Of a stretch of DNA of 37,829 bases, positions 4,797-22,149 are shown piece after piece. A program made the translations under genes and the position numbers. Within the stretch, counting starts at the first letter, position 1. Every line of letters starts with the position of its first letter. Source of the DNA: Acidimicrobiaceae bacterium (GTDB lineage: Bacteria > Actinomycetota > Acidimicrobiia > Acidimicrobiales > Bog-793); NCBI GenBank assembly GCA_003140595.1, contig PLKG01000098.1:1-37829 (forward strand), given 5' to 3'. The notes under the pieces are model-generated. The model had not been told where the DNA came from and searched no databases. It saw only the letters and a list, made by a program, of their open reading frames with translations.

Positions 4797-5235
4797 GATG
4801 ATGCCTCCCTTGTCGTCCGCGACCAATTCCGGACCGCAGAGTCCCGAATGATGGACCTTGCATCGCTGAGGGCGACCCGGGACACCCCACAACGTCGTTC
4901 GACTCGACCGCCACCTGTCTTACCCAGTACAACGCTTGAGCGGTGCGTCGCGCTGCACCCTGGATTGTCCTGTCTCTTGACTGGCGACAAACGGGACTGG
5001 CGATGAGTCCGCAAAGCGCGATCCGCCTCGCACCTGAGGCGTTTGCTCCCGCACCGGATGTGGACGCGCTCAGACTCGAGTGCTGAGCGTTCTTGACGAT
5101 TTCTGGCGGTCCCGCTGCTGCGGCCCTAGGCCGAGGGCGCCGCAGACGGCACGCCGGTCTCGGTCGCCGCAGCCAGAGTGTCGCTTGCTTTACTGTTGGC
5201 GCTTTGAAGAGTCGACATCGAGGGAGTTGTTGCCG
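4797..5235. other. 439-base divergent intergenic region
   Basis: This is the upstream region shared by the secreted DUF4232 gene (minus) and the solute-binding-protein gene (plus). I find no open frame with protein-like composition, no repeat and no RNA gene. A GAGGGAG Shine-Dalgarno lies at about 5219-5226, ahead of the ATG at 5236. Promoter boxes cannot be picked out with confidence. Confidence 0.4.
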
Positions 5236-6465
5236 ATGGCCGCCATCAGATTTCTTGGGTGTGACCAGGATGCGTTCTGTGCGAGCGTGGCACGTCACGT
5301 CAGCGAGTTTGAGGAAGCTTCAGGGCACCGGGTCGACGTGCAACTAATCGCCAACGACGAGTACTTCGCGAACAAATTGGCACCCTATCTTGGCGGCGAG
5401 AGTCCGGCCGACGTCTACATGTCCGGACCTGTACTCATGTGGGAACAGCTCGGCGCAGGATATGTCGAGCCACTGGACCCGTTTCTCGAACGAGCCGGCT
5501 CCGAATACGACCCCGACGACTTCCTTGCCACACTCGTGCGGTGCAATCGCTGGAACGGGAGCTTTGGAGAGCCACTCGGTGAGGGGCCTCTTCTCGAGCT
5601 GCCAGTCAACTGTGAGTCGTACAACCTCGCGTACCTGCCGGCCGTTCTGGAGCGTGTAGGAGCCGAGGTGCCGAGCACGTGGGACGACTACTTCGCCGTC
5701 GCCCGACAGATCGCCGAACGAGCTGCGCCTTGTCGCGGGTTCGGCCAGCGTGGAGCGGACGTGTGGCACACCATCTACACGGGATTCGCAAGCCAGCTGT
5801 GGTCCTATGGAGGGGGCGATTTCGACGCGACCGGCGCGTGCGTGATCGCCTCTCCGGCCGGGATCCGCGCGACCGGAGACATCCTTGCGGCCCTGCGAGA
5901 CGCAGGCCCGGCCGACTGGTCCAATCAGCGTTGGTACGAGCTCGCCATCGATTTCGCCCACGGACACTACGGCCTGATCGTCGATTCCGATCACTATGTG
6001 GCGTACTTCGAGGATCCGAAGGTCTCCTCAGTGTCCGGCAGAGTCGGCTATGACCTTCCCCCGATGGGGCCCGGCGGCAGACGCTGCTCGAATCTGTGGA
6101 CGTGGTCGGTGGTCATGAACGCACACTCCCGGGACAAGAGCACGGCGTGGGAGTTCATAGAGTGGGCGACAGGAAAGTCGCTTCTTCTCAGGTCCGCCTT
6201 CGAGGGCAACATGAACCCCACACGCGCGAGCACTTGGGAGGATTCGAGCTTCCAGGAGCGGGCAGCGCACTGGGGGGACTTTGCCGGTGTCGCCAGGCGC
6301 CTCGTGGAGGACGTCAGTGACGTCCTCGTGACACCGGCTGTGAACTATATCGACGTTGCGCGACGCTGGACCCGCGCACTACGGGATGCCTTCGCCGGTA
6401 CCGATTCGCTCGAGAACTGCCTTAGTATCGCGGCTTCGGATATGGAACGGCTCGTCGCTCGATAG
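5236..6465 (+). CDS. Family-1-like extracellular solute-binding protein without a visible signal peptide
   Basis: The 409-aa product has the overall pattern of ABC-transporter sugar-binding proteins (SBP family 1): an N-terminal lobe with FLGCDQDAF and the DVQLIANDEYFANKLAPYLG stretch, DVYMSGPVLMWEQL, a hinge/ligand region NCESYNLAYLP, a Trp-rich DVWHTIYTGFASQLWSYGG, and C-terminal SRDKSTAWEFIEWATG with EGNMNPTR. ATG 5236 has a GAGGGAG nine bases upstream. The upstream in-frame extension back to 5080 is Arg/Pro-rich and not a signal sequence either, so no Sec/Tat signal or lipobox is visible. No permease or ATPase gene is next to it. A Nudix gene follows after 42 bases. Whether it acts inside the cell, is exported another way, or is mis-started is open. 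Confidence 0.85.
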   Translation: MAAIRFLGCDQDAFCASVARHVSEFEEASGHRVDVQLIANDEYFANKLAPYLGGESPADVYMSGPVLMWEQLGAGYVEPLDPFLERAGSEYDPDDFLATLVRCNRWNGSFGEPLGEGPLLELPVNCESYNLAYLPAVLERVGAEVPSTWDDYFAVARQIAERAAPCRGFGQRGADVWHTIYTGFASQLWSYGGGDFDATGACVIASPAGIRATGDILAALRDAGPADWSNQRWYELAIDFAHGHYGLIVDSDHYVAYFEDPKVSSVSGRVGYDLPPMGPGGRRCSNLWTWSVVMNAHSRDKSTAWEFIEWATGKSLLLRSAFEGNMNPTRASTWEDSSFQERAAHWGDFAGVARRLVEDVSDVLVTPAVNYIDVARRWTRALRDAFAGTDSLENCLSIAASDMERLVAR

Positions 6466-8603: not shown

Positions 8604-9818
8604 TCACCGCCGCGTTGACGTCAACCGAGAGAAGAGCGGAAGGCGTTCAGGGTTCGCGAGGCCGAAGTGGTACAGGTGGAGCTCATCGGCCCCAGCCTTC
8701 AGCAGTCGCGAAGCATGCTCGTCGAAGTCGTCCGGCGCTATCGGGGCCAGAAGGTTGACGTAGGCGGCCACGCTGACCTCCGGCGGCACCAAGTGCCGGG
8801 CCGCTGCGACATCTCCTGCGATGTTCGTAGACGTTGCCTGAATGGGAACGAGCACAGCGTTTGGCCGCTGTGCCGATGACGGCGTGAGCCCTGGCGAGGC
8901 TCCGGTTGCCCACGGGCTCGCCTGGGCATGCAAGGTGATCCGCAGGGAATCGTCGGCGCTCAACAGCGAGCCGAGCACCTCTTCGAGGAGGGCGTCGCAA
9001 TGATGCTGGCGACAAGTGAGAAGCGACGCGGCCGTCGCTGCTCCGAGGACTTCCTCAGGCGCGCCAACGGCGCCGTCGTGTTGGCGCTCGGCAGTTTCGA
9101 ATGCCTCCTTCAATGCCTGCACCGTGGCTCGGGCGTCCATTCCCTCCGCTTCCCAACTCCGCTGGCAAGCTCCACAACAGCAGATTGAGAGGATCTCTTC
9201 GCCGAGAGGTGAATAGGCCCAGGCCGTCTTTTCGTGGTGACTGCCGTGTTCCACACCCAGCTGCCCGCAGGCCTCGAGCGACACCCCCTCCAGGGCAAGG
9301 TCGCGCACCGCTTCGGTCGCGAGCAGGGCGGCGTACTCGCGTACCTCCGCATTGGCAGGACAAAGCGCCCAGTCGTAGCTGTCTCCGAAGCAGTTGCTCA
9401 CGGCAAGATCCCGGTGCTCGCGCCCGAGCGTTGTGTTATGGGTCAGTACCACCCATGCGCTGACCCGCAGCCCGCCGGCATCAAGAGCCTCGACCGCATG
9501 CTTGAACGAGTCCTCACGGCCCGTCCACGGCGCGCTGAACGGTCTGAGGCTACGCCGGGCCCATACGGCAGATCGGACGGGACGGTACAGCGCGGCCCTT
9601 TCCGCGACGACGAAGCGATGCAGGGGATGTTGGGGCGTCGACGCTCGCACACTGTGGTAGGCGGCCGCCACGCTCACGTGCTCGAATCCAGCGGAGACGA
9701 GACGCGCGACCATGAGAGGATCACCGACGAGGTCCCATGGGTACAAATAGGCGACGGCTTGCGGTCCAACGACAGTCGCGCCTTCGCCCGAGCCCTCCAA
9801 GCCGCCTCCACTCCCCAT
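8604..9818 (-). CDS. Uncharacterised 404-aa protein, TIM-barrel-like, divergent from the sugar-acid operon
   Basis: I do not recognise a characterised family. From memory, similar 'alanine-rich' proteins occur in actinomycetes with the same opening (VAYLYPWDLVGDP) and closing (GADELHLYHFGLANPERLPL) signatures, but no function is known to me. The alternation of strands and helices, with acidic residues at strand ends (GVSLEACGQLG near 178-188), suggests a TIM barrel of the glycoside-hydrolase kind. A Cys cluster, CCCGACQ at about 213-219, could bind metal. There is no signal peptide. ATG 9818 is fixed by a GGGAGG with good spacing; the frame extends further upstream but only antisense to the GntR gene. 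Shared control with that operon suggests a role in the same pathway, for example hydrolysing a glycoside or lactone; that is inference. Confidence 0.8.
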   Translation of the reverse strand: MGSGGGLEGSGEGATVVGPQAVAYLYPWDLVGDPLMVARLVSAGFEHVSVAAAYHSVRASTPQHPLHRFVVAERAALYRPVRSAVWARRSLRPFSAPWTGREDSFKHAVEALDAGGLRVSAWVVLTHNTTLGREHRDLAVSNCFGDSYDWALCPANAEVREYAALLATEAVRDLALEGVSLEACGQLGVEHGSHHEKTAWAYSPLGEEILSICCCGACQRSWEAEGMDARATVQALKEAFETAERQHDGAVGAPEEVLGAATAASLLTCRQHHCDALLEEVLGSLLSADDSLRITLHAQASPWATGASPGLTPSSAQRPNAVLVPIQATSTNIAGDVAAARHLVPPEVSVAAYVNLLAPIAPDDFDEHASRLLKAGADELHLYHFGLANPERLPLFSRLTSTRR

Positions 9819-9845
9819 GCGTACCCCTCCCTTGAGGCTGAAAGT

Positions 9846-9866
9846 ACAGAGTATATTATGTGCTGT
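9846..9866. promoter_or_regulatory. Candidate GntR operator in the divergent promoter
   Basis: A 21-bp imperfect palindrome, with arms ACAG and CTGT and a central ATA-T-TAT, lies between the 404-aa gene (minus) and the GntR gene (plus). It fits the pattern ACAG-N3-ATA-N-TAT-N3-CTGT, with 14 of the 20 non-central positions symmetric. The AT-rich core also supplies likely -10 sequences in both directions (TATACT on minus, TATTAT on plus). Placement next to its own regulator gene is typical of FadR-subfamily operators. Confidence 0.45.
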
Positions 9867-9876
9867 GTATGACGCG

Positions 9877-10548
9877 ATGCTGCAGGACCGGCTCGACACA
9901 AGCGTGGTGCCCCGCCTCGGGTCTCGTGGCGATCTGATCGCCAACGAAATAAAGAGAGCGATCCTCTCAGGTCGGTACGAGGCCGGGAGTCCACTCACTG
10001 AAAAGGCGATCGCGGATGAGCTGGGCACCTCGAAGACCCCGGTCCGCGATGCTCTCAAGGCTCTGAGCGGGACGGGGCTCGTGACCTCGAGCAGCCACCG
10101 CGGTACCTCGGTCAGGACCGTCGACTCTCCGATGGCGCTGGCCGTCTGTGATCTCCGACTGCTTCTGGAGCCCGAAGCAGTGCGGCGGACGGTACTGCAC
10201 GGCCTCGATGCCGCATCTTTCAAGGCGGGGGTCGATCGAATGGTCGCCGCCGAGGACGGCGAGGATCTGTACGAGCGAAGTCTGGCGAACAGGGCGTTTC
10301 ACCGCCATCTCTACGCCGGCTGCGGTAACCCCGCCCTCGTCAAGGTGCTCGACGACCTGACCGACGTCAATGCCTTGATCAGCGTCACGGTGTGGGAGCA
10401 CGTCGGAAGTTGGGCCGGTGAGGCAGTTGAGCATCGCAAGATGGCAAAGGACGCACTGGCCGGACGCGCCGATTCGGCCGCCGACCGTCTTCGCCAGCAC
10501 GTTGAGGTTTTCCAGCAACGCGTCGTCGACGCCCTGGGCACGCGCTGA
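9877..10548 (+). CDS. GntR-family (FadR subfamily) transcriptional regulator (223 aa)
   Basis: The N-terminal winged helix-turn-helix is clear at about residues 14-82: DLIANEIKRAILSGRYEAG, then LTEKAIADELGTSKTPVRDALKAL as the recognition region, then the wing (LVTSSSHRGTSVR). Residues 88-215 form the all-helical FCD ligand-binding domain, with metal-ligand candidates Asp/Glu and His (RAFHRHLYAGCGN, QHVEVFQQR). Such proteins repress catabolic operons and release DNA on binding a sugar acid or related ligand. The start is uncertain: ATG 9877 fits the family, while GTG 9865 lies inside the candidate operator. The gene is first in a row with the four pathway enzymes, 54 bases ahead of the DapA-family gene. 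Confidence 0.88.
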   Translation: MLQDRLDTSVVPRLGSRGDLIANEIKRAILSGRYEAGSPLTEKAIADELGTSKTPVRDALKALSGTGLVTSSSHRGTSVRTVDSPMALAVCDLRLLLEPEAVRRTVLHGLDAASFKAGVDRMVAAEDGEDLYERSLANRAFHRHLYAGCGNPALVKVLDDLTDVNALISVTVWEHVGSWAGEAVEHRKMAKDALAGRADSAADRLRQHVEVFQQRVVDALGTR

Positions 10549-10602
10549 AGTGACTGCGTCGCACGCGGTCGACGGCGCCGAAGCAGAGAAATGGGAGCGA
10601 AA

Positions 10603-11511
10603 ATGAATTTCGAACAACTTCAAGAGTCCCTGAGCGGCGTAGTGGCGGTGCCGACGACCCCCTTCGGTGCAGACGGGGGCATCGACGAAGCGGCCTATCA
10701 AAGGGTCGTCCGCCGGCTTGTCGAAGGTGGCATCCGTACTGTCACGCCGAATGGCAACACCGGGGAGTTCTACGCTTTGGCCCCCGCCGAGGCGAATGTC
10801 GTCACCCGTCTTGGCCTGGAAGCAGCTGACCGGGACACCGCGGTCATGGTCGGAGTCGGGCACGATGTCGCCTCCGCTCGAGACGCCGCCAGGTACGCAC
10901 AGGCGGCGGGCGCGTCGATGATCATGGTCCACCAGCCCGTCCACCCCTATGTTTCGGTCGATGGCTGGATCGAGTACCACCGTGCGATTGCGAACCATGT
11001 ACCCGAACTGGGCGTGGTCCTGTACGTGCGCAACGAGACGATCCCGGGTTCCGCCTTCGCTCGGCTGGGCGAGTCCTGCCCGAACGTGATCGGAGTGAAG
11101 TACGCCGTGCCGAACCCCGCCCGTTTCGCGGCCGTCGCTGCAGATGCCGGTTCTGGACGGTTCACCTGGGTGGCCGGCCTCGCGGAGCTCCACGCTCCGG
11201 GGTATTTCGCCGTCGGGGCCACGGGGTTCACCTCGGGTCTGGCGAACGTGGATCCATGGACGTCGCTTCGCCTCTGGCGTGCCCTGGCCGATGGCGACCA
11301 GGAAGTCGCGAGCGAGATCTGGCACCGGGTGCGTCCCTTCGAGGAACTGCGCGCCGCCAACTCAAGCGCTAACAATGTCTCGGTGGTGAAAGAGGCGCTC
11401 TGCCAGCTCGGGGTTTGTGCCCGGGACATAAGACCTCCGAGCTCGTTGCTCCCCATCGAATTGAGAGCGACAGTCACCGAGATCCTCGAGCGCTGGGAGT
11501 TGCCCGCATGA
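10603..11511 (+). CDS. DapA-family keto-deoxy sugar-acid dehydratase (aldolase-type TIM barrel, 302 aa)
   Basis: The product belongs to the dihydrodipicolinate synthase/N-acetylneuraminate lyase superfamily. The Schiff-base Lys166 is in IGVKYAVPN and the helper Tyr141 is in VVLYVRNE. The substrate-carboxylate motif reads NGNTGEF (residues 50-56) rather than the GTTGE of true DapA, as in sugar-acid branches. Next to an IlvD/Edd dehydratase and a ketoglutarate-semialdehyde dehydrogenase, the likely job is to turn a 2-keto-3-deoxy pentonate (EC 4.2.1.43 type) or 5-keto-4-deoxyglucarate (EC 4.2.1.41 type, with decarboxylation) into alpha-ketoglutarate semialdehyde. ATG 10603 has GGGAG five bases upstream. 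Its TGA overlaps the next ATG (ATGA), so the two are translationally coupled. Confidence 0.9.
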   Translation: MNFEQLQESLSGVVAVPTTPFGADGGIDEAAYQRVVRRLVEGGIRTVTPNGNTGEFYALAPAEANVVTRLGLEAADRDTAVMVGVGHDVASARDAARYAQAAGASMIMVHQPVHPYVSVDGWIEYHRAIANHVPELGVVLYVRNETIPGSAFARLGESCPNVIGVKYAVPNPARFAAVAADAGSGRFTWVAGLAELHAPGYFAVGATGFTSGLANVDPWTSLRLWRALADGDQEVASEIWHRVRPFEELRAANSSANNVSVVKEALCQLGVCARDIRPPSSLLPIELRATVTEILERWELPA

Positions 11512-13229
11512 CTGGCGAACCCGGAGCGCTTCGCAGCAGCTGCTGGTTCGAGGGCGAGGGCCTGCGGGCTTTCAGCCACCGTTCACGTGCCCGCCAACTC
11601 GGCATTGGTGCCGAGGAGCTGGCCAACAAGCCCATCATCGGGATTCTCAATACCTGGAGCGACATCAACCCCTGCCACATGCACCTGCGCGAGCGCGCCC
11701 AGGCAGTAAAGCGCGGCGTCTGGGAGGCCGGTGGGTATCCGGTCGAGATGCCGGTGGCCACCCTCTCTGAGACATTCCAGAAGCCGACGCCCATGCTGTA
11801 CCGAAACCTGCTCGCGATGGACACCGAGGAGATACTCCGCTCGTACCCATTCGACGGTGCCGTGCTCATGGGCGGCTGCGACAAGTCCACACCTGCGCTC
11901 TTGATGGGCGCCGCAAGCGCGGACAGGCCCATCGTCTACGTGCCGGCCGGCCCGATGCTCACAGGTCACTGGCACGGCGAGACACTGGGCAGCGGAACGG
12001 ACATGTGGCGCTTCTGGGACGAAAAGCGCGCCGGGATCATCAGCGAGGCCGAGTGGGACACGCTCGAAGCCGCGATGGCACGCTCGCCGGGTCAGTGCAT
12101 GACGATGGGTACCGCCTCGACGATGACCGCTGTCGCCGAGGCCCTCGGACTCACGCTCCCTGGCGCATCCTCGATCCCGGCAGTGGACTCGGCTCACCAC
12201 CGGATGGCGGCCGCGAGCGGCTCGCGTGTCGTGGAGATGGTTCGCGAGGACCTGAAGATGTCCAAGATCTCCGACAGACGCGCCTTCCTCGATGCGGTAA
12301 CGGTGGTCCTTGCTCTCGGTGGTTCCACCAACGCGGTCATCCACCTCGTCGCGATGGCGGGGCGTTGCGGTGTGGAGCTCAGCTTGGACGACTTCGACCG
12401 CCTGTCGAGGTCCACTCCTGTGCTCGCCAACATCCGTCCAAGCGGCGAGTACCTGATGGAGGACTTCTATTACGCCGGCGGCCTTCCCGCACTCATGGCT
12501 CAGATCAAAGAGCTCCTTCACCTCGAACGGACGACGGTCAACGGACGGACCCTGGGAGAGAACATCGCCGACGCCGCCGTCCACGACGAGCGGGTCATCC
12601 GGCCGGCCGAGAACCCGCTTTCGGAACATGGCGGGCTGGCCATCCTGCGGGGAAACCTGGCGCCGGACGGTGCTGTGATCAAGCATCTCGCGGCCTCGCC
12701 GCGACTCTTGAAGCACACGGGGCCTGCGGTTGTCTTCGATGACTACAGAGATATGCAAGGTCGCGTCAACGAACCAGATCTCGATGTCAGCGCAGACTCT
12801 GTGCTGGTGCTGCGCCACTCGGGCCCCCAGGGCGGCCCCGGCATGCCTGAATACGGGATGCTCCCGATTCCGGACAAGCTCCTGCGCGAAGGCGTCCGGG
12901 ACATGGTCCGCATCTCCGACGCCAGGATGAGCGGGACGAGCTACGGCACCTGCGTCCTGCACGTCGCGCCCGAGTCCTTCGTCGGAGGGCCTCTGGCGCT
13001 GGTGCAAGACGGCGACCTGATCACCCTCGACGTTGCCGAGCGGCGGTTGCATCTCGAGCTGAGCCGAGACGAGATCCGCCGGCGCAGGCAGGCTTGGACA
13101 CCACCGGAGAAGATCTTCGAACGTGGCTACGGCGCCATGTACAGCGAGCACATCGGTCAAGCCGACAAAGGATGCGATTTCGACTTCCTCGCCCGCAGCG
13201 GCGCCACAGCAGAGCCGGACGCCGGGTGA
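11508..13229 (+). CDS. IlvD/Edd-family sugar-acid dehydratase (L-arabinonate/xylonate dehydratase type, 573 aa)
   Basis: This is an iron-sulphur, Mg2+-dependent dehydratase that removes water from an aldonic (or possibly aldaric) acid to give a 2-keto-3-deoxy acid. The [2Fe-2S] ligands of the pentonate-dehydratase subgroup are all present: Cys56 (SDINPCHMH), Cys124 (GGCDKS) and Cys197 (GQCMTMG). Lys126, the expected carbamylated metal ligand, is two residues after Cys124. The catalytic-Ser loop MSGTSYGT is intact near residue 470. Length and motifs (PAVDSAHH, GGSTNAVIHL, LMEDFYYAGG) match sugar-acid members, not the branched-chain enzyme IlvD. The start ATG overlaps the upstream stop (ATGA), and its own stop overlaps the next GTG. 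The exact substrate cannot be read from sequence. Confidence 0.93.
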   Translation: MTGEPGALRSSCWFEGEGLRAFSHRSRARQLGIGAEELANKPIIGILNTWSDINPCHMHLRERAQAVKRGVWEAGGYPVEMPVATLSETFQKPTPMLYRNLLAMDTEEILRSYPFDGAVLMGGCDKSTPALLMGAASADRPIVYVPAGPMLTGHWHGETLGSGTDMWRFWDEKRAGIISEAEWDTLEAAMARSPGQCMTMGTASTMTAVAEALGLTLPGASSIPAVDSAHHRMAAASGSRVVEMVREDLKMSKISDRRAFLDAVTVVLALGGSTNAVIHLVAMAGRCGVELSLDDFDRLSRSTPVLANIRPSGEYLMEDFYYAGGLPALMAQIKELLHLERTTVNGRTLGENIADAAVHDERVIRPAENPLSEHGGLAILRGNLAPDGAVIKHLAASPRLLKHTGPAVVFDDYRDMQGRVNEPDLDVSADSVLVLRHSGPQGGPGMPEYGMLPIPDKLLREGVRDMVRISDARMSGTSYGTCVLHVAPESFVGGPLALVQDGDLITLDVAERRLHLELSRDEIRRRRQAWTPPEKIFERGYGAMYSEHIGQADKGCDFDFLARSGATAEPDAG

Positions 13230-13996
13230 CGCCCTCGCGGACCCTCGTCATCACCGGCGCCGCCGGACGACTCGGGACCTATCTGCGTTCGTCACTCGAC
13301 GACGTCGCCTCAAAGGCACGCCTTGTCGACGTCGTCGCGCCGCCCGCGGCCCTACCCGGTGAACCGGTCGAGATCCACCTGGGGTCGGTGACCGATCCCG
13401 ACCTGCTCGACGTGGTGTGCCGTGGCGCGAACGCGATTGTCCACCTCGGAGGCTTCGCGGGCGACGCGCCGTGGCCGGACCTCTCCGAGGTCAATGTCGA
13501 AGGGACTCGCCAGGTCCTAGAGGCGGCTCGACGGCACGGGGTTTCGCGCGTCGTGGTGGCGAGCAGCAATCACGCGGTCGGCTTTCATGTCCGAGGACCC
13601 CGGCCGCTGCCGGACGATGTGGCACCGCTGCCCGACAGCCTCTACGGCGTCAGCAAGGCGGCAGTCGAGGCGATGTGCCGCTTCTACAGCGTCAAGTTCT
13701 CGATGGACATCGTCTGTCTGCGCATCGGGTCCTGCTTCGATACGCCCGAGAACCACCGCATGCTCTCCACATGGCTCTCGCCAGCCGATTTCGTGCGGCT
13801 TGCAAGCGCGTCGCTGGCAAGTGAGCACGGAGGCTTCCGGTTCGTGTGGGGCGTCTCGGCAAACACGCGCCGCTGGTGGTCCACTGTGGGCGGCGACGCC
13901 ATAGGCTTCCATCCGGAGGACGACGCAGAGCGCTTCGCCGAGCTGTATCCCGGAAGCCCCCCTGAGCCGGAATACGTCGGGGGAGTCACTATCTAG
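13226..13996 (+). CDS. Uronate-dehydrogenase-like NAD(P)-dependent SDR (256 aa)
   Basis: This is a short extended-SDR enzyme with the nucleotide-binding motif GAAGRLG near residue 11 and the catalytic Tyr-xxx-Lys in YGVSKAAVEAM. The stretches VVVASSNHAVGFH and RMLSTWLSPADFVRL are signatures I associate with uronate dehydrogenase (EC 1.1.1.203). That enzyme oxidises D-glucuronate or D-galacturonate at C1 to the aldarolactone. Related extended SDRs in haloarchaea oxidise L-arabinose instead, so an aldose dehydrogenase role is possible. GTG 13226 overlaps the dehydratase stop (GTGA), giving tight coupling. The first chemical step of the pathway is therefore third in gene order. No lactonase gene is obvious beside it. 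Confidence 0.88.
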   Translation: MTPSRTLVITGAAGRLGTYLRSSLDDVASKARLVDVVAPPAALPGEPVEIHLGSVTDPDLLDVVCRGANAIVHLGGFAGDAPWPDLSEVNVEGTRQVLEAARRHGVSRVVVASSNHAVGFHVRGPRPLPDDVAPLPDSLYGVSKAAVEAMCRFYSVKFSMDIVCLRIGSCFDTPENHRMLSTWLSPADFVRLASASLASEHGGFRFVWGVSANTRRWWSTVGGDAIGFHPEDDAERFAELYPGSPPEPEYVGGVTI

Positions 13997-14066: not shown

Positions 14067-15557
14067 GTGACTGACATCGACACCAACTTTCCCGAGACAT
14101 CGTTTCTCGAAGTGTCCGATGTAGTCGAGCGAGCCGTTGACGCCTCTCCACGGTGGCGGGCGCTCGACCCGTCGAACAGAGCCGAAGTGCTGCGTGCAGT
14201 CGCCGACCGTCTGGACTTAGCGGGTGCTGAGCTCGTCCCCCTGGCGATCAGCGAGTCCCACTTGACCGAGACGCGCTTGCGCGGAGAACTGTTCCGCACG
14301 ACCTTCCAGCTGCGATTCCTCGCCGGGGTTATCGACGAGGGCGACTACCTCCAGGCGTGCATCGACACAGCAGACGAGAGCTGGCCGCTGGGACCGAGAC
14401 CGGACCTGCGCCGTCTTCTCCGGCCGCTCGGCCCAGTGGCGGTCTTTGCTGCCAGCAACTTCCCGTTCGCCTTCAGTGTCGCCGGCGGCGACTCAGCTTC
14501 TGCTCTGGCTGCCGGATGCCCGGTGGTCCTCAAGGCACACCCCGGTCACAGGCAGCTCTCGGCCCGCTGCGGCGCGATCGTCTGTGCGGCACTGCGCGAC
14601 GCCGGAGCGCCTGATGGCACCTTCGCCGTTGTCGAAGGCGACAAGGCCGGCCGCGAGCTTGTCACCCACCCTGACATCAGCGCGGTCGCCTTCACCGGAT
14701 CGGCGAAGGTGGGCCGAATGCTGTTCGACATCGCCGCCGGACGCCTTAGGCCGATCCCCTTCTACGGAGAGCTCGGGAGCGTGAACCCCGTGTTCGTGAC
14801 GATGCGGGCCGCGGCCGCCCGACTGGACGAGGTGCTTTCCGGCTTCGTCGCCTCGTTCAGCTTGGGGGTCGGGCAGTTCTGCACACAGCCCGGCATCCTG
14901 CTGCTACCGGTAGGGGTCCTCGACTATGACCGCATCCGCACGATGGTCGTCGCACAGCCGTCCGCCCGGCTTCTCAACGACCGGGTGGATGCGGCCTTCC
15001 AGGAAGGGCTCGAGGCACTGTTGCACCGGCCGAGCGTCGAGGTTCTGGCGGAAGGGAGCAGGCAACCGGACGGCGCGCGAACACCCACACTGCTTCGCTC
15101 GAGCGTCGGGGGACTCCTATCGGACGCCGAGCACCTCTTGGCGGAGTGTTTCGGCCCCGTCTCGCTCGTGGTCGAGTATGAGGAGGAGAGCCACCTGATC
15201 GAGGTCGCGAAGATGCTGGAAGGTCAGCTCACAGCCACCGTTCACGGCGAGCTAGACGACGAGGTCGTTCCCGAGCTGCTCGACCTGCTCGCGGACAAGG
15301 CGGGGCGGATCATCTGGAACGGGTGGCCGACCAGTCTGGCTGTGACCTGGGCCATGCAGCACGGCGGCCCGTATCCGGCCACGACCTCGCCGTTGCACAC
15401 CTCGGTGGGGGCCGCTGCCATCGGTCGGTTCCTCCGGCCCGTCACCTACCAGGGCATGCCGGACCACCTGCTGCCAGCCGCCGTGCGGGAGCAGAACCCC
15501 CTTCATCTCCCGCGCCGCGTGGACGGCGAGTACCGAATTGCGTCGGGTCAGGACTGA
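14067..15557 (+). CDS. Alpha-ketoglutarate-semialdehyde dehydrogenase (2,5-dioxovalerate dehydrogenase, 496 aa)
   Basis: This aldehyde dehydrogenase oxidises 2,5-dioxopentanoate to alpha-ketoglutarate (EC 1.2.1.26), the last step of Weimberg-type and oxidative uronate routes. The catalytic Glu235 lies in YGELGSVNPVF and the nucleophile Cys272 in GVGQFCTQPG; ELGSxNP and GQFCTxPG distinguish this subgroup from ordinary aldehyde dehydrogenases. The C-terminal HGGPYPATTSPLHTSVG and FLRPVTYQGMP are also typical. The product is NADP-preferring by family. GTG 14067 is preceded by AAGGAG at good spacing. It lies 70 bases after the SDR gene and is the last gene of the operon. It converges on the MFS gene with a 10-base gap. 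Confidence 0.93.
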   Translation: MTDIDTNFPETSFLEVSDVVERAVDASPRWRALDPSNRAEVLRAVADRLDLAGAELVPLAISESHLTETRLRGELFRTTFQLRFLAGVIDEGDYLQACIDTADESWPLGPRPDLRRLLRPLGPVAVFAASNFPFAFSVAGGDSASALAAGCPVVLKAHPGHRQLSARCGAIVCAALRDAGAPDGTFAVVEGDKAGRELVTHPDISAVAFTGSAKVGRMLFDIAAGRLRPIPFYGELGSVNPVFVTMRAAAARLDEVLSGFVASFSLGVGQFCTQPGILLLPVGVLDYDRIRTMVVAQPSARLLNDRVDAAFQEGLEALLHRPSVEVLAEGSRQPDGARTPTLLRSSVGGLLSDAEHLLAECFGPVSLVVEYEEESHLIEVAKMLEGQLTATVHGELDDEVVPELLDLLADKAGRIIWNGWPTSLAVTWAMQHGGPYPATTSPLHTSVGAAAIGRFLRPVTYQGMPDHLLPAAVREQNPLHLPRRVDGEYRIASGQD

Positions 15558-19397: not shown

Positions 19398-20162
19398 TCA
19401 GAACACCTTCGAGAGAAAGGCCTTGGTTCGTTCGTGCTGCGGGTTGGCTATGACCTCTCGCGGGGCGCCAACTTCGACGACCACGCCCTCGTCTATGAAC
19501 ACCAGTGTGTCGCCGACCTCACGCGCGAAGCCGATCTCGTGAGTGACCACGACCATCGTCATCCCCTCCTCGGCCAATCCACGCATCACGTCGAGGACTT
19601 CGCCGACGAGCTCAGGATCGAGGGCGCTGGTGGGCTCGTCGAAGAGCATGAGCTTCGGCTCCATCGCGAGCGCCCGGGCGATGGCGACCCTCTGCTGCTG
19701 ACCGCCGGAGAGCTGGTTGGGATAAGAGTCGACCTTGCTGGACAGTCCGACCCGGTCGAGCAGGCTTCGGGCACGCGTAGTGGCCACCGCTCGGGAGTCC
19801 TTCTTCACGAGCACCGGTGCCACGACGACGTTCTCCAGCGCCGTCATGTGCGGGAACAGGTTGAAACGCTGGAAGACCATCCCGATCTCGGTACGCCGGC
19901 GGCAGACTTCGCGTTCGCGAAGCTCGTGGAGACGACCGCCGCGTTCTTGGTACCCGACGAGCGACCCGTCGACGTACAGCCGACCTGAATTGATCTTCTC
20001 GAGGTGGTTGATGCAGCGAAGGAAGGTCGACTTGCCCGACCCGGACGGCCCGAGGAGGCACATCACCTCGCGCGGCGCGACCTCGAGGGTGATCCCCTTG
20101 AGCACTTCGAGCAGGCCGTAGCGCTTGTGGACGGCCTCGGCACGGATCATCGGAGCAGGCAC
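19398..20162 (-). CDS. Polar amino acid ABC transporter ATP-binding protein (254 aa)
   Basis: This is the cytosolic ATPase of a GlnQ/HisP-type importer. Motifs are complete: Walker [11 protein letters not shown]-loop [17 protein letters not shown], signature [15 protein letters not shown], Walker [13 protein letters not shown] and H-loop [13 protein letters not shown]. An insertion between Walker A and the Q-loop ([20 protein letters not shown]) matches the subgroup in which the loop contacts its permease. GTG 20162 starts directly after the permease stop; an in-frame ATG at 20150 is an alternative. It is the last gene of the binding protein-permease-ATPase operon. The amino acid carried cannot be decided from sequence. 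Confidence 0.95.
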
Positions 20163-21110
20163 CTAAGACCCGCCCGCTGAAGTCGCTGAGAAAGGCACGC
20201 GACGAAGTGTCGTCAGGTTGCGCCTGAGCTTTTGGATCGGCGTGAGTGGGAGCGCGTACGAGGTGCCGCGGGCGTAATAGCGCTCCACGTAGTACTGACC
20301 AATAGTCAACACCGTGGTCATGAGCAGGTACCAGAAGCTCGCCATGATGTACAGCGGGATCGTCTCGTATGTCCTGGCCGCGATGTTCTCTGTCTGGTAG
20401 AGGAGCTCGGGATAGGTGACGACGACCGCGAGCGACGTGGTCTTGAGCATGGAGATCGTCTCGTTGCCCGTCGGCGGCACGATGACGCGCATCGCCTGAG
20501 GCAGAACGATCCGTCGCATCAGCGGAGCACGCCGCATGCCGAGCGACTGCGCCGCCTCGAACTGGCCGTGGTCGACCGAGAGGATCCCGGCTCGCACGAT
20601 CTCGGCATAGTAAGCGCCCTCGTTGAGCCCTAACCCGAGGAGGGCAGCCACAAAGGGGGTGACAATGCTGTTCGCGCTCATGTGCACGAACTCTGGCCCG
20701 AAGGGTATGCCCAGGCTGATCGTCGGCTGGAGAGCCGAGATCACGTACCAGAAGAGCAGTTGCACGTACACCGGCGTGCCCCGGAAGAACCAGATGTAGA
20801 GCCATGCGGCACCCGAGAGAATCGGGTTCGGCGAGAGCCGCATCACAGCGAAGAGCACACCGAGAATCACGCCGATCGCCATTGCGACGAATGTGAGCTC
20901 AAGTGTCTTCTCCACGCCTTGCACGACCGGCGTGGAGAAGAAGTAGGTTCCGACGATTCCCCAGCCGAAGCGGGGATTGGTGGTGATGTCGTGGACCAGC
21001 ATCGCCCCGAGTACGAGCAGGACCGCCGTTCCGACCCACCGCCCTGGATGGCGCAGGGGCACCGCCCGGATCTCCTCCGGGGGGTGCCCCATCTCGCCGT
21101 CAGCTATCAC
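20163..21110 (-). CDS. Polar amino acid ABC transporter permease (315 aa)
   Basis: This is a single permease of the His/Glu/Gln/Arg/opine family. It has an N-terminal helix at about residues 27-45 and then the conserved core: VVQGVEKTLELTFVAMAIG, WFFRGTPVYVQLLFW, AYYAEIVRAGILSVDHGQ, and the EAA loop EAAQSLGMRRAPLMRRIVLPQA that docks on the ATPase. The last helix pair surrounds PLYIMASFWYLLMT. GTG 21110 has GGAGGT upstream. It follows the binding-protein gene by 33 bases and abuts the ATPase gene. Only one permease gene is present, so the channel is probably a homodimer. Confidence 0.95.
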   Translation of the reverse strand: MIADGEMGHPPEEIRAVPLRHPGRWVGTAVLLVLGAMLVHDITTNPRFGWGIVGTYFFSTPVVQGVEKTLELTFVAMAIGVILGVLFAVMRLSPNPILSGAAWLYIWFFRGTPVYVQLLFWYVISALQPTISLGIPFGPEFVHMSANSIVTPFVAALLGLGLNEGAYYAEIVRAGILSVDHGQFEAAQSLGMRRAPLMRRIVLPQAMRVIVPPTGNETISMLKTTSLAVVVTYPELLYQTENIAARTYETIPLYIMASFWYLLMTTVLTIGQYYVERYYARGTSYALPLTPIQKLRRNLTTLRRVPFSATSAGGS

Positions 21111-21143
21111 CGGCTCACCTCCGGTCGGGAGCCTTCACTTCGA

Positions 21144-22079
21144 TCAAAGAAGTATCACCGGCTTGGTGATCGCGCCCGCCTGTACTCCCCACTTGTCGAG
21201 GATCTTCGCGTAGATGCCGTCTTTGATGAGCACCTTGACCGCTGCAAGAGTTGCGGCATCGAGTTTCGAGGACTTCGCGAAAGCAAAGCCGTACGGTGCC
21301 ACCCCGAACGCCGGTCCATCGAGTTTGAACTGGCCTTTCGCCAACTGGACGATGTAGCCCGCGACCTGGGAGTCGGCAAAGCCGACCTGGGCACGCCCGC
21401 TCGCAATGGCAAGGTTGGCCTCGTTCTGGGAAGCGAACGCAAGCACGGTGTCGGGCTTCTGCTTGGCCTTCTTGCACAGGTTGACTGCGCTGTTGGCGTC
21501 GGTCTGCTCGGTCGTCCCGGTTTCGACCGCGACCGTGCGGCCGCACAGGCTCTTGAGCCCGTCGTTCAGCTTCAGCGTGCTCGACTTGGCCACGTAGTAG
21601 CCCTCGCCTGCCTGGAAGTAGGTGACGAAATTGACCTGCTTCTCACGTTGTGTCGTCACCGTGAACGACGAGTTGCCAACGTCGAACTTGTTCGCCTGCA
21701 GGCCGGCGATGATCGTGTCGAAGGTCGCTGCGACATCGACCCACTTGACTCCCATGACAGCTCCGAGGGCTGCGCTGAAGTCCGCGTCCATGCCGATGAT
21801 GGTCGAGCCGTTGGCCGCGACGAACTCGTCTGGGGGATAGGTGGCGTCCATCGCGGACGAGACCGAGCCCTTGGCCCTGATGCTCGCCGGCACGAGGGCA
21901 GCTACAGCCGGGTCCTTCGGCGGAGTCGGGATCGTGACCGCCGCATTATGGGCCGCCTTCGGCGTGGCGAACGCCGTCCCGATGCCCGGGACCAGCAGCG
22001 CGGCACCCGATAGCGCGACTGCGATGATGGCGGCCTGGGACCTTATGTGCCTGTGTGGTGATTTGTCACTGATCTTCAT
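21144..22079 (-). CDS. Polar amino acid ABC transporter substrate-binding protein (311 aa)
   Basis: This is a family-3 periplasmic-type binding protein. The N-terminal signal covers residues 1 to about 39: a basic start, the apolar core AAIIAVALSGAALLVPG, and cleavage near AFA-TP. No lipobox Cys is visible at the cut. The mature domain shows STIIGMDADFSAALGAVMG, SSFTVTTQREKQVNFVTYF, the ligand-binding VAVETGTTEQTD and ADSQVAGYIV, and ends with IYAKILDKWGVQAGAI. ATG 22079 suits the GGGGAG eight bases upstream better than the ATG at 22085. It is the first gene of the operon. Confidence 0.94.
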   Translation of the reverse strand: MKISDKSPHRHIRSQAAIIAVALSGAALLVPGIGTAFATPKAAHNAAVTIPTPPKDPAVAALVPASIRAKGSVSSAMDATYPPDEFVAANGSTIIGMDADFSAALGAVMGVKWVDVAATFDTIIAGLQANKFDVGNSSFTVTTQREKQVNFVTYFQAGEGYYVAKSSTLKLNDGLKSLCGRTVAVETGTTEQTDANSAVNLCKKAKQKPDTVLAFASQNEANLAIASGRAQVGFADSQVAGYIVQLAKGQFKLDGPAFGVAPYGFAFAKSSKLDAATLAAVKVLIKDGIYAKILDKWGVQAGAITKPVILL

Positions 22080-22149
22080 GTGCATTTCTCCCCGCCTCGG
22101 TTGCGTCGCCCCCCAGGCTCACCGAAAGCCCGGCGCAAGGTTGCACGAG

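Follow-up and report, generated by a model that had tools for sequence, protein, structure and literature searches.

A TIM-barrel protein resembling sugar-cleaving enzymes that probably acts early in an actinobacterial sugar-acid pathway

A soluble, barrel-shaped protein with a likeness to sugar-cleaving enzymes accompanies, in several actinobacteria, the genes for the breakdown of sugar acids such as glucuronate; it probably acts early in that pathway, by cutting or opening a sugar. The protein, a 404-aa TIM barrel of an unnamed glycosidase-like family, is encoded on the minus strand at 8604..9818 of the window (the whole stretch of DNA analysed, 37,829 nucleotides long, representing positions 1-37829 of a 118-kb contig). 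The reading we favour, to which we give nearly an even chance, is that of a cytosolic glycosidase of an undescribed family within the GH42/GHL6/GHL10 group of TIM barrels, feeding uronate oxidation. A widespread gene that is mostly annotated as 'hypothetical', also in Streptomyces-like, Nonomuraea and haloarchaeal records, is hereby placed near known glycosidase families, and a small set of residues and a pathway are put forward for it.

The gene and its divergent operon

The reading frame is intact, with no internal stop and an ATG at 9818, and the gene is present as a single copy in its own genome bin (3.5 Mb). The dN/dS values of 0.26 against congener G003, 0.29 against congener G001 and 0.30 between these two congeners identify it as a real gene under purifying selection and not a chance open reading frame. 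It evolves faster than its neighbours: the protein is 70-73 % identical to its counterparts in the two congeners, compared with 82-92 % for the adjoining GntR, KdgD, IlvD, SDR and ALDH proteins. An apparently broken copy in a third congener (G002) was discounted, as the X characters in its translation correspond to unread assembly bases and look like gaps, not loss.

The gene lies head to head with that of a GntR/FCD transcriptional regulator (9877..10548, plus strand; Pfam FCD 4e-17 and GntR 1.6e-16, scanned from 9817), confirming the back-to-back arrangement with an intact 404-aa gene that the first-pass annotation had described. The divergent intergenic region (9819..9876) measures 58 bases if the regulator starts at the ATG at 9877. 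This codon aligns across the four genomes of the genus that were compared, all of which also keep the AT-rich core of the region, as would be expected of a shared promoter/operator. A palindrome had also been claimed for this region; the best inverted repeat, TACAGAG-N11-CTGTGTA, pairs at only 6/7 positions, and it was rejected as an operator since mononucleotide shuffling of the region gave an equally good repeat in 1009 of 2000 cases.

Four enzyme genes follow the regulator and are transcribed with it, opposite to the gene under study. The first encodes a DapA/KdgD-family keto-deoxy sugar acid dehydratase (10591..11511, plus strand) with a Pfam DHDPS match and 147 bits against NF002958, below the cut-off of 278; the second an IlvD/Edd sugar acid dehydratase (11505..13229, plus strand) that passes the L-arabinonate dehydratase model NF009559 at 942.5 bits (cut-off 882). 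They are followed by an SDR related to uronate dehydrogenase (UDH; 13226..13996, plus strand), the three best PDB sequence matches of which are uronate dehydrogenases (E 2.4e-50 to 1.1e-47), and by an aldehyde dehydrogenase (ALDH; 14070..15557, plus strand; Pfam Aldedh; PDB 1eyy at E 3.5e-107, 3v4c at E 3.3e-102), a candidate for the alpha-ketoglutarate semialdehyde dehydrogenase step.

Predicted fold and sequence relationships

An AlphaFold model of the 404-aa protein, built together with five homologues from the Nonomuraea group, is a TIM barrel (pLDDT 69.2, pTM 0.74) with strands at residues 20-25, 47-53, 118-124, 178-182, 293-297, 321-324, 349-355 and 379-383. A second model with a Nonomuraea homologue as query gave the same kind of barrel (pLDDT 71.7, pTM 0.77); the two differ in query and share an identical set of six sequences. 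Residues 56-101 and 185-201 of the model fall below a pLDDT of 50, and the geometry of the active site is thus only predicted.

In VIA comparisons, the top match of the 404-aa model was the GH42 structure 1kwg (Z 22.1, 302 residues, rmsd 3.4), followed by Cwp19 (Z 22.0, 291, rmsd 3.5), PgaB (Z 21.7, 306, rmsd 3.6), a beta-amylase complex (Z 20.9) and a GH156 enzyme (Z 20.5, 292, rmsd 3.5), where Z values within 1 of each other are equivalent and similarity of fold by itself does not establish function. The structure 1kwg again came first for the Nonomuraea homologue. Foldseek placed Cwp19 and 1kwg at E 1.0e-8 and 2.3e-8 for the 404-aa model, and at 3.6e-9 and 3.8e-8 for the homologue. The Cwp19 and PgaB matches are presumably glycosidase domains, and we take Cwp19 to be of the GHL10 type. 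By title, the best 50 matches in each of the four lists are all glycosidase-type barrels; the matches listed comprise glycosidases, beta-amylases (one of them described as non-catalytic), branching enzymes and glucosyltransferases, with no lactonase among them. The expectation of a carbohydrate-enzyme barrel, raised in the first-pass annotation as a point to check, is borne out by these matches to glycoside-hydrolase-type folds.

Sequence searches with single models were far less telling. The sole Pfam match of the 404-aa protein is GHL6 (PF14871) at 15.7 bits, below the cut-off of 35, and the NCBIfam scan gave no match; that no glycosidase model of either collection was passed speaks against the favoured reading. 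At E<=1, PF02449 (GH42) fails to match the protein and is absent from the 11 families recorded across the 30 aligned members described below, and the same model does detect a GH42 in the same genome. GHL10 (PF02638) reaches E<=1 in 8/30 aligned members (best E 7.9e-5), with no such match for the 404-aa protein and none in its genome, while GHL6 is matched by 3/30 members and DUF4015 by 2/30. SMP-30 proteins, UxuL among them, fold as beta-propellers; neither PF08450 (SMP-30/gluconolactonase-type) nor PF01261 (sugar isomerase/epimerase barrel) matches the protein at E<=1. Against the PDB, phmmer returned a single match at E 0.14, and the family profile found Cwp19 at E 0.0069 with eight others at E 0.31 or worse.

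Profile-profile comparison was more informative. With hhalign, where E-values are for one comparison, the family profile aligned with 11 GH42 domains from related genomes over 259 columns (P 92.6 %, E 4.6e-7), and with 10 GHL6 proteins over 134 columns (P 96.3 %, E 1.9e-9), placing Glu182 on the strand-4 Asp of GHL6. The 17 controls from the same neighbourhoods, which include the TIM barrels DapA (counted twice, as family and as KdgD of the studied locus), MR/MLE and AKR, stayed at P <=5.6 %. By profile comparison, then, the family is linked to GH42 and GHL6 and not to the controls. This narrows the choice of glycosidase, lactonase or epimerase offered by the first-pass annotation towards the first of these, with a lactonase kept as a rival and the epimerase set aside solely on the lack of a PF01261 match.

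The likeness to GHL6 and GHL10 consists of the weak sequence matches and of Cwp19 as best Foldseek match. It has limits: apart from the sub-threshold Pfam score, the 134-column alignment covers little of the C-terminal half, and the CxCxxC motif discussed below occurs in only 1/10 usable GHL6 proteins (L105). The GH156 exosialidase, a family marked by an Asp/His pair and an Arg/Arg/Asn carboxylate triad, shares the barrel type and stands beside the studied protein by fold alone. For GH156, an inverting Asp14/His134 pair acting on a carboxylated sugar is proposed in the available text of PMC6811678, and this proposed pair is a precedent for an acid-plus-His mechanism.

Invariant residues and a possible mechanism

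To describe the family we used a hand-picked alignment of 30 rows, the studied protein included, in which the row of L032 begins at an internal codon; left out were L019, L020, L025, L027/L016 (assembly gaps), L028, L031 and L062, as well as five Streptomyces-like loci out of ten and almost every one of the 150 matching plasmid records. Twelve residues are invariant (30/30): Y54, H55, P93, W122, H127, C153, E182, H195, C213, C215, C218 and Y383. The Glu in GVSLEACGQLG and the cysteine cluster in ICCCGACQ, both picked out by the earlier annotation, are indeed present and correspond to Glu182 and to Cys 213, 215 and 218; likewise, the first and last strands that had looked conserved carry D29 (27/30) and the invariant Y383.

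In the model, Glu182 (codon 9273..9275; this and the following codons are on the minus strand) ends barrel strand 4, a position suggesting a role as catalytic acid/base. Cys153 (9360..9362) would be the first ligand of a putative Cys4 metal site, completed by Cys213-X-Cys215-X2-Cys218 (9165..9182), with the order and CxCxxC spacing of the Gal42 zinc site. The remaining invariant positions of interest are His55 (9654..9656), which with Tyr54 follows strand 2 just before the low-confidence stretch 56-101; His127 (9438..9440), just after strand 3; His195 (9234..9236), in the loop between Glu182 and the cysteine cluster and within the low-confidence stretch 185-201; and Tyr383 (8670..8672), at the end of strand 8.

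The comparison with GH42 (PF02449; beta-galactosidases and alpha-L-arabinopyranosidases, e.g., the Thermus A4 beta-galactosidase 1kwg) is the most instructive. In Gal42, the acid/base is Glu148 and the nucleophile Glu305, and the zinc ligands, taken from a homology model, are Cys113 (printed once as Cys11), Cys153, Cys155 and Cys158, a cluster absent from some GH42 enzymes, according to the accessible portion of PMC8573354. Common to both families are the TIM barrel, a Glu ending strand 4 and the Cys...Glu...Cys-X-Cys-X2-Cys order of the zinc site. In the hhalign alignment the Cys153 region and the cysteine cluster fall near the cysteines of GH42, whereas Glu182 falls off the GH42 acid/base, with which it is equated by strand and order only. 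The differences are substantial: Glu182 is preceded by Leu in 27/30 members (Cys, Ala and Ser once each) and never by the Asn of the GH42 Asn-Glu pair (0/30); about 23-26 extra residues separate the Glu from the cysteine cluster; the studied protein has only 404 aa; and the strand-7 acid of the GH42 nucleophile position is not conserved, strand 7 (349-355) holding no Asp/Glu in the studied protein and no acid-dominated column across the 30 rows. Without this acid the standard GH-A retaining mechanism appears unlikely, which counts against the favoured reading, and an inverting route is likelier than the retaining route of GH42.

On the favoured reading, the protein most likely splits an imported glycoside containing a uronic acid in the cytosol, and the freed uronate would be oxidised by the neighbouring uronate-dehydrogenase-like SDR, the product passing through the dehydratases and the aldehyde dehydrogenase to 2-oxoglutarate. 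Glu182 would act as acid/base, with a water activated by His297 on strand 5, by His127 or by Asp29 attacking the anomeric carbon, and Cys153, 213, 215 and 218 may coordinate a structural zinc close to the loop of the active site, as the GH42 pattern suggests. The cytosol is the likeliest location, since several homologues begin directly at strand 1, leaving no room for a signal peptide. The import step is a weak point: in its own genus the studied gene has no recognised sugar ABC permease gene nearby, the ABC set that was noted (19398-22085, 10 kb away) being of the amino-acid type by eye only. As a glycosidase, the protein would be the founding member of a family that lacks the usual nucleophile on strand 7. 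Separately, the window encodes a CUT1-type solute-binding protein (5080-6465) with no recognised permease genes adjoining, which has only a partial match at the syntenic place in G003 (L022).

His297 (8928..8930, end of strand 5) is where the studied protein departs from much of its family, and it bears on the main rival. The members linked to a UDH homologue form one branch with FastTree support of 1.0 (13/30 tips). All 13 have His at the strand-5 end, while the position is filled by Asp in 10 of the 17 others, by Glu in 3 and by Ser in 1, with a gap in 3 and His in none; the alignment of this column is unsure for the haloarchaeal rows. On the rival account, which we regard as unlikely, the protein is a glycosidase-fold aldarolactonase or lactone isomerase that opens the aldaro-1,5-lactone formed by the UDH homologue; the base otherwise aimed at the anomeric carbon would attack the lactone carbonyl, and His297 would replace the usual acid. 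The restriction of His297 to the UDH clade (13/13 vs 0/17) and the association of this clade with a UDH homologue favour such chemistry, as does the fact that no SMP-30-type lactonase was recognised among the part of the neighbours that was scanned. In other bacteria, lactone handling after Udh is done by Gli, Gci, UxuL or UxuF, as far as the available text of PMC6353982 describes it. Against this, aldarolactones may open spontaneously or through an SMP-30 protein encoded elsewhere in the genome, a metallo-beta-lactamase-fold gene lying 2-3 kb away in 3/10 Streptomyces-like loci could open the lactone there, and, as noted, the listed fold matches contain no lactonase. An SMP-30/gluconolactonase-like gene above the Pfam cut-off is in fact found at C145:98621-99340, on the contig of the studied gene, so that the missing lactonase to which the first-pass annotation had drawn attention may be a lesser gap than it looked. 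An evolutionary form of this rival, in which a glycosidase barrel turned aldarolactonase by keeping the strand-4 Glu and the Cys4 site, losing the strand-7 nucleophile and having His where most cousins carry an acid on strand 5, with rhizobial and haloarchaeal cousins acting on other sugar conjugates, seems to us rather improbable. If it were a lactonase, the protein would put a glycosidase barrel to an unusual use and fill a step of uronate oxidation.

Association with uronate genes

The link to sugar-acid genes is most evident from the 22 loci read for this clade, each of which carries at least one of SDR(UDH), DapA/KdgD, IlvD and ALDH in the stretch. A UDH homologue lies within 3.5 kb of the studied gene at 17/22 loci, IlvD is present at 15/22 and ALDH at 13/22, counts that are phylogenetically non-independent and have four lineages behind them. 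Gene calls in these neighbourhoods come from a simple GC-bias script that may misplace starts or strands and that missed 2/10 Streptomyces-like copies of the studied gene, which were placed from the search match.

In the Streptomyces-like genomes (an inferred genus assignment), 9/10 have a KdgD match no more than 12 bases from the gene, in 7 gene calls the two overlap by 4 bases, and the one adjoining KdgD that was scanned (L051) passes NF002958 at 441 bits against the cut-off of 278. Such tight coupling could also suit a barrel without catalytic activity, which would bind a sugar acid and serve as a sensor or as a partner of KdgD or of the regulator, and the faster evolution of the gene relative to its neighbours points the same way; however, the invariance of Glu182 and several His residues across bacteria and haloarchaea argues for catalysis, and we hold an inactive barrel to be very improbable. 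Most of the Streptomyces-like loci (L049-L058) have two DapA-type dehydratases: the KdgD adjoining the studied gene and, in the arrangement known from the window, a second, divergent one next to IlvD and GntR. In L051, about 8 kb separate the studied gene from a classical GH43; at that locus the sugar could come from another enzyme, which weighs against the glycosidase reading.

At the Nonomuraea-group loci, the studied gene is preceded by ALDH and by a member of the enolase family resembling glucarate dehydratase (241.9 bits, below the cut-off of 828.7). KdgD lies within 6 kb at 4/5 loci, the one scanned passing NF002958 at 405 bits, and a UDH homologue is found about 10-11 kb away at 4/5 loci by coordinates, having been read directly only in G457.

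Viewed from the other side, a UDH homologue (E<=1e-30) occurs in 22/396 genomes of the phylum, among them all 11 with a close copy of the studied gene (its own genome included), one with a distant copy on another contig and 10 with none. KdgD and IlvD were found in 0/8 of the UDH loci lacking the studied gene that were read (16 kb around UDH), and ALDH in one; as KdgD and IlvD are missing together with the gene, it goes with the pathway rather than with UDH alone. Among ten neighbours scanned from four such UDH-only loci there was one GH43, next to UDH (G164), and otherwise no pathway genes, and no clear replacement for the studied gene was found at these loci. In G227 and G429, as in several genomes that do have the studied gene, the UDH homologue has a TerD gene nearby, indicating that UDH can persist without KdgD and the studied gene.

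The clusters resemble the oxidative uronate pathway of Agrobacterium in their UDH-like SDR, KdgD-type and aldehyde dehydrogenase genes. That pathway comprises Udh, Gli, Gci, KdgD and KGSA dehydrogenase (PMC6353982), and in the part of this source available to us the enzymes described include no counterpart of the studied gene; the clusters here differ further in carrying IlvD/Edd or enolase-type dehydratases.

Distribution and contexts of distant relatives

Relatives were found in 9/60 near genomes and in 16/396 genomes of the phylum, the own genome included in both counts; the latter comprise 10 from one Streptomyces-like genus and 5 distant ones. Six further loci come from named genomes, of which Nonomuraea and [Actinomadura] parvosata account for five. 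On plasmids, 150 of 72,556 records matched, 120 over >=80 % of the query, with 112 from Rhizobium and at least 27 from haloarchaea. Identity across the wider family is about 20-25 %. A pattern search of viral contigs picked out 21 stretches, none of them encoding a relative, and nothing on the family was noticed in the open-access literature searched.

The wider family is also found in amino-sugar, D-amino-acid and peptidoglycan-type contexts without recognised uronate genes, and the uronate tie is therefore a property of this clade and not of the whole family. The co-occurrence with sugar-acid genes that the first-pass annotation had proposed to examine thus holds for the clade at all 22 loci and does not extend to its distant relatives. 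Some of these relatives have GH3, GH20, GH18 and NagZ genes around them or a sugar ABC importer next to them, which supports the glycosidase reading. In Natrinema the homologue stands among GH3, GH20 and PIG-L deacetylase genes, and in Halorussus with NagZ, DUF1343, anhydro-MurNAc kinase and a peptidoglycan-recognition protein. The lactonase reading loses from such amino-sugar and peptidoglycan-type clusters, where a lactone is unexpected, and from Alicyclobacillus, in which the homologue accompanies creatininase, KDGP aldolase and kinase genes and adjoins a phosphotriesterase-related gene that we take to encode another candidate lactonase.

Other contexts speak against a pure uronate role. 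Haloarchaeal plasmids (L064, L068, L069) combine the homologue with a sugar ABC importer, a creatininase-family gene, an MR/MLE dehydratase, an SDR and RidA; plasmids of Rhizobium etli (p42c, L065), Aureimonas (L067) and Aminobacter (L072) have a D-amino-acid-type deaminase/alanine racemase and a sugar importer beside it; and Rhizobium tumorigenes 932 shows yet another context. That Rhizobium and its relatives place the family by D-amino-acid-type and not glycan genes counts against the glycosidase reading. It would fit a shared scaffold on which each clade has been selected for a carbohydrate reaction of another kind, such as that of a lyase or of a hydrolase of N-, C- or ether-linked sugar conjugates. 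The diverse company in other clades (creatininase, RidA, M81, D-amino-acid enzymes) is consistent with this, and the six invariant His/Tyr/Trp residues (Y54, H55, W122, H127, H195, Y383), with no second invariant acid, suggest unusual chemistry; yet the studied clade keeps to sugar-acid genes at every locus read, and we judge this alternative quite unlikely.

Two of these distant clusters recur between plasmids. Besides the homologue, the plasmids L065, L067 and L072 share a ribose-type ABC importer, an amidohydrolase, the deaminase/alanine racemase and an aspartoacylase-like gene; 2/3 also have RidA. Gene order in the haloarchaeal cluster is the same in L068 and L069 and rearranged in L064. 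On the Halorussus limi plasmid, the distant homologue (L073:8983-10158) lies in an apparent muropeptide-degradation cluster that also includes a serine hydrolase and a GH18.
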